Positions 40,725-42,590 of a stretch of 64,000 nt of DNA are shown piece by piece. The notes under the pieces were generated by a model. That model saw only the letters and a program-made list of their open reading frames with translations, was not told the origin of the DNA and ran no database searches. This stretch comes from Candidatus Rhodoblastus alkanivorans (GTDB taxonomy: Bacteria > Pseudomonadota > Alphaproteobacteria > Rhizobiales > Beijerinckiaceae): the NCBI RefSeq assembly GCF_022760755.1, contig NZ_JAIVFP010000001.1, positions 2,088,001 through 2,152,000 of the forward strand, read 5' to 3'. Position 1 is the stretch's first letter. The number at the start of each line of letters is the position of its first letter. The position numbers were made by a program, and so were the translations under genes.

Positions 40725-41948
40725 GTGACGAAGCCGCGGACGAGCCTGACCCACCCGCTTGAGATCGCGCAAGTGCGCGCCAGCCCCTCGCACGGCCGGA
40801 TCGGGATTACCTTCTGCCCCGGCAAGCACGACAGGGCCGCGAGCACGGGGGCGTGGGCGCGGGACCTTTCGATGGATCTCGACGCCATCGCCGACTGGGG
40901 CGCGCGTCTGGTGCTGACGCTTAACGAGCCGGCCGAACTCGACGCGCTCCAAACGCCCCAACTCGGCGTGGAAGTCCTGAGTCGCGGACTCGATTGGCGA
41001 CACCTGCCCATTGCCGATTATTCGGTCCCTGGCGAAGCGTTCGAGAGGCAATGGCGAACGCATGGCCGCGACATCCGTACGCTGCTTCGCCGCGGGGGCG
41101 ATATAGTGGTGCATTGCAAAGGCGGACTTGGTCGGGCCGGCATGATAGCCGCCCGGCTGCTCGTCGAATTGGGCGTGAACCCCGAGGAGGCGATCAAGGA
41201 AGTCCGCCGCGCCCGCAAAGGCGCGATCGAGACGCCGGCGCAACTCGCACTGGTCCGACGGACGTCGCCCATCATCGACGTCGAAGCGATCGATACGGCG
41301 ACCCTGCAAAACGTTGGCCGCCAGTTGGGAAGCAATCCCGGCGGCGTCTATCAGGACGAGAACGGTCGGCGCTTCTATGTGAAGACCCTCGAATCTGCGG
41401 CGCACGCGCGCAACGAAATCCTGGCGGCGAAGCTCTATCAATTAGCCGGCGCGCCGACGCTGACTTATGTGCGCGCGAAGGACTCCACTCAGGTCGCGAC
41501 CGAATTCGTCGAACTCGAAAAGACGCATATCGCCAATTTCAACGGCGACGAGCTGAAACAGGCGCGGCGCTGGCTCGGAGTGCACGCATGGGCCGCCAAT
41601 TGGGATGCCGCCGGCTTCCACGGCGATAATCAGGGCGTCGTGGCCGAAGTGGTGATGACGCTCGACCTCGGAGGGGCGCTGGAGTTTCGGGCGCAGGGGG
41701 ATCCGAAGGGCAAGGCATTCGGCGCCTGCGTGCGCGAACTCGACACTTTGCGCTCGGACGAGGGTAACCCTCACGCGGTCAAGCTTTTCGCCGACATGAG
41801 CCCCGCCGAGATCAATGAGGCCATCGCGGCGGTGACGCGAATTCCGGAAACCGCGATACGCAGGGTCGTCGCCGAAAACGGCGGCGGCGAGGCGCTTGCC
41901 GAGAAGATGATCGCGCGCAAAGCCGATATGGCCAAACGCCCGGCTTGA
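40725..41948 (+). CDS. Dual-specificity phosphatase fused to a kinase-like domain
   Basis: A 407-residue protein with two enzymatic-looking domains. Residues 1-180 form a CDKN3-like dual-specificity phosphatase: GRIGITFCPGKHDRAAS, DLDAIADWGARLVLTLNE, and the P-loop HCKGGLGRAGM (CX5R, Cys131 and Arg137). Residues 195-400 resemble a HipA/PI-kinase-type fold: loop GSNPGGVYQDENG, lysine RFYVKT (Lys220), glutamate ARNEILAAKLY (Glu231), catalytic-loop-like HAWAANWDAAGF (Asn292, Asp294) and DLGGALEF (Asp314). The GTG at 40725 was chosen because the phosphatase pattern begins just after; a TTG at 40638 is possible. The domain roles are inferred from motifs. Confidence 0.65.
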   Translation: MTKPRTSLTHPLEIAQVRASPSHGRIGITFCPGKHDRAASTGAWARDLSMDLDAIADWGARLVLTLNEPAELDALQTPQLGVEVLSRGLDWRHLPIADYSVPGEAFERQWRTHGRDIRTLLRRGGDIVVHCKGGLGRAGMIAARLLVELGVNPEEAIKEVRRARKGAIETPAQLALVRRTSPIIDVEAIDTATLQNVGRQLGSNPGGVYQDENGRRFYVKTLESAAHARNEILAAKLYQLAGAPTLTYVRAKDSTQVATEFVELEKTHIANFNGDELKQARRWLGVHAWAANWDAAGFHGDNQGVVAEVVMTLDLGGALEFRAQGDPKGKAFGACVRELDTLRSDEGNPHAVKLFADMSPAEINEAIAAVTRIPETAIRRVVAENGGGEALAEKMIARKADMAKRPA

Positions 41949-42170: not shown

Positions 42171-42590
42171 ATGCCGAGCAAGATTGGTTATGGTATTCAA
42201 CAGATGCTGGCCGAGGCCAATGCGGCGGTGCGGACGCTGAAAGTGGCTGAGGCCCAGGACCTGCTTGGCCGCGACGACGTGCTTTTCGTCGACCTGCGCG
42301 ACCCGCGCGAATTGGACCGCGAGGGCAGAATCACCGGCGCCTTCCATTGCCCGCGCGGGATGCTGGAATTCTGGATCGACCCGGCGAGCCCCTACGCCAA
42401 GCCGCAGTTCCAGGAGGACAAGACTTTCGTCTTCTTCTGCGCCGGCGGCCTGCGCTCGGCGCTCGCCGCACATCTGGCGCAGCGCATGGGCCTTGGCCCG
42501 GTCGCCCATATCGAGGGCGGCTTCGGCGCGTGGAAAAAGGCGGGCGCCCCACACGAGCCGCCGCGCGAGCCGGCGGCGAAGAAGTTCTGA
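42171..42590 (+). CDS. Rhodanese-domain sulfurtransferase
   Basis: A 139-residue single rhodanese domain. VLFVDLRDPRELDREGRITGA and the active-site loop FFCAGGLRSALAA (persulfide-forming Cys) are clear, followed by GGFGAWKKAGAP. It moves sulfane sulfur to an acceptor such as cyanide or thiols; the natural substrate is unknown. It is eight bases upstream of the GST gene and likely co-transcribed with it. Confidence 0.9.
   Translation: MPSKIGYGIQQMLAEANAAVRTLKVAEAQDLLGRDDVLFVDLRDPRELDREGRITGAFHCPRGMLEFWIDPASPYAKPQFQEDKTFVFFCAGGLRSALAAHLAQRMGLGPVAHIEGGFGAWKKAGAPHEPPREPAAKKF

Follow-up and report, generated by a model that had tools for sequence, protein, structure and literature searches.

A phosphatase joined to a probable kinase-like domain as a candidate further component of the DraT/DraG nitrogenase switch

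Which cellular process would call for a phosphatase and a kinase-like domain on one polypeptide? The question is raised by a gene of Candidatus Rhodoblastus alkanivorans that lies in a stretch of 64,000 nucleotides (the window; contig NZ_JAIVFP010000001.1, positions 2,088,001 to 2,152,000 of the forward strand). The original prediction, made from the letters of the window, read the product as a dual-specificity phosphatase fused to a kinase of the HipA/PI-kinase fold and proposed a self-contained switch. The open reading frame ends with the stop at 41948 on the plus strand and can begin with a GTG at either 40725 (407 amino acids) or 40638 (436 amino acids); we favour the former because in one relative (L002) an in-frame stop sits two codons ahead of the start aligned with the window protein. 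The frame is not a chance one, since a single scan of bacterial genomes with the whole protein as query gave 89 relatives, the best 80 of which form the set of loci analysed here. The divergent neighbours of the gene encode a DUF218 (ElyC-type) and a DUF3253 protein, and the expectation that no partner gene is adjacent holds for the window. A rhodanese-like gene (42171-42590) follows on the same strand after about 220 bases and is absent from the recurrent neighbours listed for the relatives. The features of the gene are as follows.

40725..41948, plus strand: protein of 407 amino acids with a DSP phosphatase and a probable HipA-like kinase-like domain (open reading frame call; relatives at the best 80 of 89 loci)
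40725..41276, plus strand: N-terminal DSP/PTP phosphatase domain, residues 1-184 (Pfam Tc-R-P, PTP-SAK and CDKN3 above cut-off; solved PTPs)
41016..41018, plus strand: D98, presumably the general acid of the phosphatase (54 of 54 rows)
41112..41144, plus strand: CX5R phosphate-binding loop HCKGGLGRAGM, residues 130-140 (C131 and R137 in 54 of 54 rows)
41283..41945, plus strand: C-terminal kinase-like domain (the C-domain), residues 187-407 (alignments of 36 and 70 rows; HipA_C in 21 of 70 members)
41328..41345, plus strand: Gly-rich loop GSNPGG, residues 202-207 (G202 in 68 of 68 rows)
41382..41384, plus strand: K220, which we take to be the ATP-binding Lys (68 of 68 rows; invariant in the 36- and 70-row alignments)
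41415..41417, plus strand: E231, presumably the helix Glu that pairs with K220 (68 of 68 rows; invariant in the 36- and 70-row alignments)
41583..41630, plus strand: catalytic-loop-like HAWAANWDAAGFHGDN, residues 287-302 (N292, D294 and N302 in 68 of 68 rows)
41664..41675, plus strand: DLGG, DFG-like, residues 314-317, a presumed metal site (D314, G316 and G317 in 68 of 68 rows)

The N-terminal domain scored above the Pfam cut-offs for Tc-R-P (3.5e-12), PTP-SAK (5e-9), Y_phosphatase, and CDKN3, whereas its matches to DSPc and Y_phosphatase3 fell under theirs, and it matched the sequences of solved PTPs with a best E-value of 3.5e-12. In an alignment of 100 rows, some of them with a single domain, D98, C131, and R137 are kept in all 54 phosphatase rows. 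With the profile cut-off passed and the Cys and Arg of the CX5R loop as well as the Asp present, the domain is, judged by its sequence, an active-looking member of the DSP/PTP phosphatases, and the CDKN3-like assignment of the original prediction stands. The Tc-R-P family carries a polymorphic-toxin label; no toxin, immunity, or secretion genes were recognised among the 40 neighbour clusters listed. Distant relatives of the phosphatase domain were also seen within arsenic-resistance operons of a Pseudomonas and a Klebsiella plasmid (L221:3507-4010 and L222:3501-3998).

The C-domain bears the motifs that had been predicted for it, namely the glycine-rich loop, Lys, Glu, catalytic loop, and DLGG, and they are constrained: K220, E231, N292, D294, N302, and D314 occur in 68 of 68 C-domain rows of the 100-row alignment and remain invariant when phage and plasmid relatives are included (alignments of 36 and of 70 rows). 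The same rows were inspected for orthologs that had lost these Lys/Asp motifs, a result that would have spoken against a kinase, and none was found. Given the residue roles in the two families, the conservation pattern of both domains leads us to expect two working enzymes, and the Lys, the Glu, the catalytic Asp/Asn, and the metal Asp expected of a HipA-like kinase are all present.

Profile searches place the C-domain near the HipA-type kinases at low scores. Its window copy has no Pfam family above cut-off (DUF7529 is the only one listed, at 0.047 or 0.021), and the window protein itself has no Pfam HipA match. Among 70 diverse C-domains, HipA_C was the commonest Pfam match, found in 21 (best 8.5e-4), with HipA_2 in 7 (best 0.0044) and the commonest unrelated family in 3. 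In a scan of 10 members, HipA_C matched six, all below the gathering score of 30.5 bits and over profile positions 17-65 or less, i.e., the N-lobe part with the Lys and Glu. When the C-domain was compared by hhalign with nine HipA proteins taken as open reading frames from genomes of the window's order, the score was 42.1 (P 7e-5, probability 62, 51 columns); it was 40.4 with a short wrong frame (L204) included and 43.3 without L204 and the cut L211. Control comparisons gave 13.2 for DraT, 14.6 for DraG, 15.4 for the DSP domain, and 26.5 for the best of 45 clusters of six-frame open reading frames, many of which are probably not genes. The score against HipA_2 was 20.7, where the frames used for L214 and L216 deviate from the reported lengths. 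Profile searches of solved structures returned nothing significant for the C-domain (best values 0.085 and 0.84), and those of NCBIfam and PHROGs returned scattered weak matches. The 0.84 match, confined to the N-lobe, is to a chain named 'Effector protein B', which we take to be Legionella LepB. By eye, C-domains from Rhodopseudomonas and phages read WLGNRD or WLGNWD...DN, against GNRDDHAKN or GNSDAHAKN in two HipA proteins.

By these weak but repeated profile matches, the nearest relatives of the C-domain appear to be the HipA-type kinases (PF07804, PF20613), with which it has in common the N-lobe Lys/Glu pattern and the N-x-D...N...D order; it differs from them in lacking the HipA N-subdomain, in scoring below the gathering threshold, and in the spacing of the catalytic loop. 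We consider it quite likely that the C-domain has a kinase fold, and it is probably a HipA-like, ATP-using kinase-like domain. The predicted HipA relationship is thus upheld by weak profile similarity and by complete conservation of the Lys, Glu, Asp, Asn, and Asp, although the HipA_C matches of the 10-member scan stay below the gathering score. In the proposed profile comparison, hhalign gave this weak similarity to HipA, and the searches of solved structures gave no significant match. A HipBA toxin-antitoxin pair was considered and rejected, since the HipA N-subdomain has no Pfam match in the window protein. No recurrent small gene that might be a HipB partner was seen among the 40 neighbour clusters listed.

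The hosts of the best 80 of 89 relatives include Rhodoblastus, Blastochloris, Rhodopila, Rhodobacter, Rhodovulum, and Methylomonas, and further Methylocapsa, Zoogloea, Rubrivivax, Derxia, Allochromatium, and Rhodopseudomonas. A survey of domain fusions, as the original prediction had proposed, found the phosphatase fused to the C-domain at 24 of the 80 loci, the phosphatase followed by the C-domain as a neighbouring gene at 52, the reversed order at three (one of them fused), and the phosphatase alone at one; two loci counted as fused, L048 and L028, are frame-broken. Both domains (together, the module) thus occur at 79 of 80 loci, a count that describes arrangement rather than independence because the loci were picked by likeness to the whole protein. 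The single protein of the original prediction is real in the window, whereas two adjoining genes encode the domains separately at 54 of 80 loci. Of these 54 pairs, 14 overlap by ATGA, 8 overlap otherwise, and 28 lie within 30 bases, while 2 are farther apart and 2 have no start found; the gaps were measured to the nearest possible start codon, a choice that favours short gaps. That various lineages have the domains fused, closely adjacent, or in reversed order suggests that the two activities work together. In the Rhodopseudomonas loci L073, L079, and L080, the C-domain precedes the phosphatase and is divergent (33-38% identity), with a fusion in L079.

The genomes that carry the module nearly always encode DraT (PF07357); this ADP-ribosyltransferase, which turns nitrogenase off, was present in 46 of 48 and 28 of 29, i.e., in 74 of the 77 genomes examined for the best 80 of 89 loci (L012 and L069 were left out, and L008 shares a genome with L007). 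The three misses are two metagenome-assembled genomes (MAGs) with nifH (L045 and L063) and the locus with the phosphatase domain alone, which has a stop inside the match (L071). Against this, an even sample of the phylum contained DraT in 29 of 398 genomes; both domains together were found in three of these 398, with at most four candidate stretches scored per genome, and all three were DraT-positive. In a sample of the family, DraT was present in 18 of 219 genomes and both domains in seven, so that DraT accompanied the module in 7 of 7 genomes compared to 11 of 212 others (p about 7e-9, kinship ignored). Nitrogenase itself is also common to these hosts, nifH being above cut-off in 46 of 48 genomes (the exceptions, L047 and L050, are MAGs with DraT). 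When the family sample was restricted to its 46 nifH-positive genomes, DraT was found in all 7 that carry the module and in 9 of the 39 that lack it (p about 2e-4, kinship ignored), which ties the module to DraT beyond nitrogen fixation as such. The module is absent from most DraT genomes, namely from 26 of the 29 sampled across the phylum and from 11 of the 18 sampled within the family. Looser relatives of the phosphatase alone or of the C-domain alone occur in many DraT-negative genomes of both samples, and the single domains are therefore not tied to nitrogenase.

On a tree of DraT, the presence of the module required 8 changes, at least 6 of them forced, compared to a mean of 22.6 for shuffled labels, and it was spread over both main DraT clades. 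Inheritance of the link within a single clade was accordingly rejected: the label is clustered, but it changes 8 times. Of the 34 genomes with DraT but no module, the tree took 26; several genomes contribute two rows, and one row labelled positive (L266, genome G095) has only a C-domain remnant. In that genome of the family sample, the remnant adjoins draT (L228:3877-6150), which suggests decay of a once-linked module. The draT pairs of Rhodoblastus were seen to sit on long branches of the tree.

Part of the loci also show physical linkage. Within the fetched flanks of up to 5 kb, draT was found at 14 of 80 loci and draG at 13, in three arrangements, and the flanks of the other 66 loci contained no draT; in the window's own genome, the module gene, draT (with draG behind it), and nifH lie far apart from one another. 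In the first arrangement (12 loci), the module stands tail-to-tail with draG, followed by draT, in Rhodobacter and relatives, Blastochloris, and an Acetobacteraceae MAG. Rhodobacter sp. CZR27 (L121) also has it, with the genes annotated draG and DraT, and in Rhodobacter capsulatus (L024) the module relative adjoins draG. In the second, found in Rhodoblastus acidophilus DSM 142 (L008), a module copy is divergent from draT, and the genome has two copies of each. The other side of this copy is occupied first by a Pyridox_ox_2 gene and then by genes for a NifA-like activator and AnfH/NifH and by anfD, anfG, anfK, and anfO, i.e., an Fe-only nitrogenase cluster. The genome G123 was seen to hold anfO, anfK, anfG, anfD, AnfH/NifH, the NifA-like gene, Pyridox_ox_2, one of two module copies, and one of two draT genes on one stretch (L224:1102-12445). 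The third arrangement is that of Thalassolituus (L064:3170-6908), where draT, the phosphatase, the C-domain, and a flavodoxin follow on one strand as an apparent operon; for the divergent glycohydrolase of this locus, Tri1 (ADP-ribosylarginine hydrolase) scores above DraG, both being under their cut-offs.

Upstream sequences were compared with the promoter elements of nitrogen fixation. Sigma-54-type sites with a best score of 8 or more occurred in 7 of 80 upstream stretches; among random windows they numbered 50 in 4000, and among other gene starts 16 in 797. Three of the seven (L072, L075, and L078) share one Ideonella site at -14, and those of L001, L012, L016, and L065 have no common position. 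The window gene reached a best score of 5. NifA-type TGT-N10-ACA sites were found in 3 of 80 upstream stretches versus 2.8% of random windows. Sigma-54-like sites nearly coincide in the Rhodoblastus relatives L001 (about -47, score 8/12) and L006 (about -49, score 7/12). A family that we read as GGDEF-type, near 13 of 80 loci, stands in scattered places on both strands and was taken for a common family rather than a partner.

Each half of the protein also pairs with ADP-ribosylation enzymes in other settings. Among the five nearest plasmid relatives of the phosphatase other than the module itself (46-53% identity), four are fused or adjacent to an ADP-ribosylglycohydrolase (one dissected as a fusion, one as an overlapping neighbour pair, and two taken from the listing), and the fifth has insertion sequences around it. 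Phages carry the C-domain in large numbers, with at least 577 confirmed stretches, and none of the phage members examined has a Pfam match above cut-off in that domain. Seventeen large proteins with the C-domain were chosen for dissection (14 from 80 viral loci, two from annotated phages, and one from a phage-like plasmid). An ART domain is present in 8 of them and a NUDIX domain in 8; 14 have one or both, and 3 have neither. In the viral loci L122-L201, the large proteins that carry the C-domain were seen to have NUDIX, ART, portal, minor-capsid, or Mu F-like domains as well.

Two described groups resemble these pairings. Section 3.8 of PMC9503650 describes phosphatases of the same superfamily coupled to ADP-ribosylglycohydrolases and proposes that they process released ADP-ribose (Iyer et al., 2022); in the portion considered here, these ARG-phosphatase systems were chosen for having no coupled ART, whereas module genomes nearly always contain DraT and the module adds a kinase-like domain. 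The polyvalent head-packaged ARTs of phages (PMC5512222, PMC9503650) recall the phage C-domains with NUDIX, ART, portal, and minor-capsid domains. The kinase domain of polyvalent proteins in the relevant parts of PMC5512222 is a different, truncated Ser/Thr/Tyr-type one, and the C-domain is not named in those parts.

Set beside the DraT/DraG switch, which turns nitrogenase off and on through reversible ADP-ribosylation of its Fe protein, the module shares its genomes, partly its gene neighbourhood, and its ADP-ribose-related partners. It differs in being neither an ART nor a glycohydrolase by Pfam, and phosphate chemistry is absent from the switch in the published portions that we drew on. DraB/NifO, the third gene of draTGB in Azospirillum, is like the module an accessory gene linked to draTG. 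An identity with it was rejected because the folds differ: DraB is ArsC-related with a thioredoxin-like fold in the cited part of PMC5249018, and the module combines a DSP with a kinase-like domain. The 'self-contained switch' of the original prediction gives way to an accessory of DraT/DraG, which better fits a module almost confined to DraT genomes and with draT nearby at 14 of 80 loci. On balance, we lean towards the view that the DraT/DraG nitrogenase switch has in this gene an additional component that has yet to be described; none of the open-licence full texts listed by the searches was seen to name it in such a role.

How the module would act within the switch can be proposed with less assurance. 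Most likely, some participant in the ADP-ribosylation cycle would gain a phosphate through the kinase-like half and lose it through the phosphatase half. Our guess for the substrate, a tentative one, is the ADP-ribose tag itself, either while attached to the Fe protein or as soon as DraG has freed it. Phosphorylation of the tag by the kinase-like half would keep nitrogenase switched off, and dephosphorylation by the other half would open the tag to removal once more. ADP-ribose is favoured as the common denominator because each half ties to different ADP-ribosylation enzymes across settings, and for this reason we rank editing of the tag above control of DraT, DraG, or PII, above clean-up, and above a scaffold role. 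The full combination, in which the nitrogenase tag is reversibly phosphorylated by the module and phages use the same C-domain with their own ARTs, we regard as unlikely. Such a layered modification, a phosphate on ADP-ribose, was not found among the open-licence texts listed by the searches.

Control of the enzymes rather than of the tag is possible but doubtful; here the kinase-like domain would phosphorylate DraT, DraG, or a PII protein, a step undone by the DSP. This reading would account for the tight co-occurrence and linkage with draT/draG, and a protein target has a precedent in HipA, which phosphorylates glutamyl-tRNA synthetase according to the part of PMC9758233 that bears on it. 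The pairings of the phage C-domain with ART and NUDIX domains and of the phosphatase with glycohydrolases, however, favour ADP-ribose chemistry over any one protein partner.

The two domains might instead clean up after the switch, processing free ADP-ribose, its breakdown products, or phosphoribosyl and ribosyl scars on proteins. Deglycation offers a parallel, in which fructosamine-3-kinase-type kinases act along with a PTP-fold phosphatase. The NUDIX partners of the C-domain in phages agree with this reading, as does the proposal in the cited section of PMC9503650 on glycohydrolase-coupled phosphatases. Because many organisms other than nitrogen fixers should profit from such clean-up, the near-confinement of the whole module to DraT genomes speaks against this reading, which we hold unlikely.

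It is more improbable still that the C-domain is a dead scaffold that binds ATP or ADP-ribose and delivers the phosphatase, or the ART in the case of phages, to its target. The restriction of the HipA matches to the N-lobe and a spacing of the catalytic-loop Asp/Asn that by eye is unlike that of HipA would fit a dead domain, whereas a dead kinase would not usually keep its Lys, Glu, Asp, Asn, and Asp invariant, as is seen in the diverse 36- and 70-row alignments. A module of defence or phage origin directed against phage ADP-ribosyltransferases, with an incidental link to nitrogen fixers, would suit the many phage C-domains and the anti-phage role proposed for phosphatase-glycohydrolase couplings in the relevant part of PMC9503650, but it is very improbable in view of DraT in 74 of 77 genomes, three draT-linked arrangements, the presence in both main DraT clades, and a copy at an anf cluster.

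In Rhodobacter capsulatus, a switch-off independent of DraT/DraG has been reported (PMC8777916, in part). The gene is a candidate for a part in it because its relative adjoins draG in this organism, and reversible phosphorylation of the tag by the module, if real, could account for it; both catalysis by the C-domain and a role in nitrogenase control are what we infer here. Nitrogen-fixing bacteria are of limited use where ammonium is present because nitrogenase is switched off post-translationally, and strains have been engineered by deletion of draT2 or draTG, as described in parts of PMC8777916 and PMC12552129. If the proposal is true, the extra component beside draG in R. capsulatus would be an easily deleted candidate for the switch-off that DraT/DraG leave unexplained. 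The biochemistry of the C-domain would inform two fields with one answer, the control of nitrogenase and the biology of phages, in which the same family is widespread and often joined to an ART.
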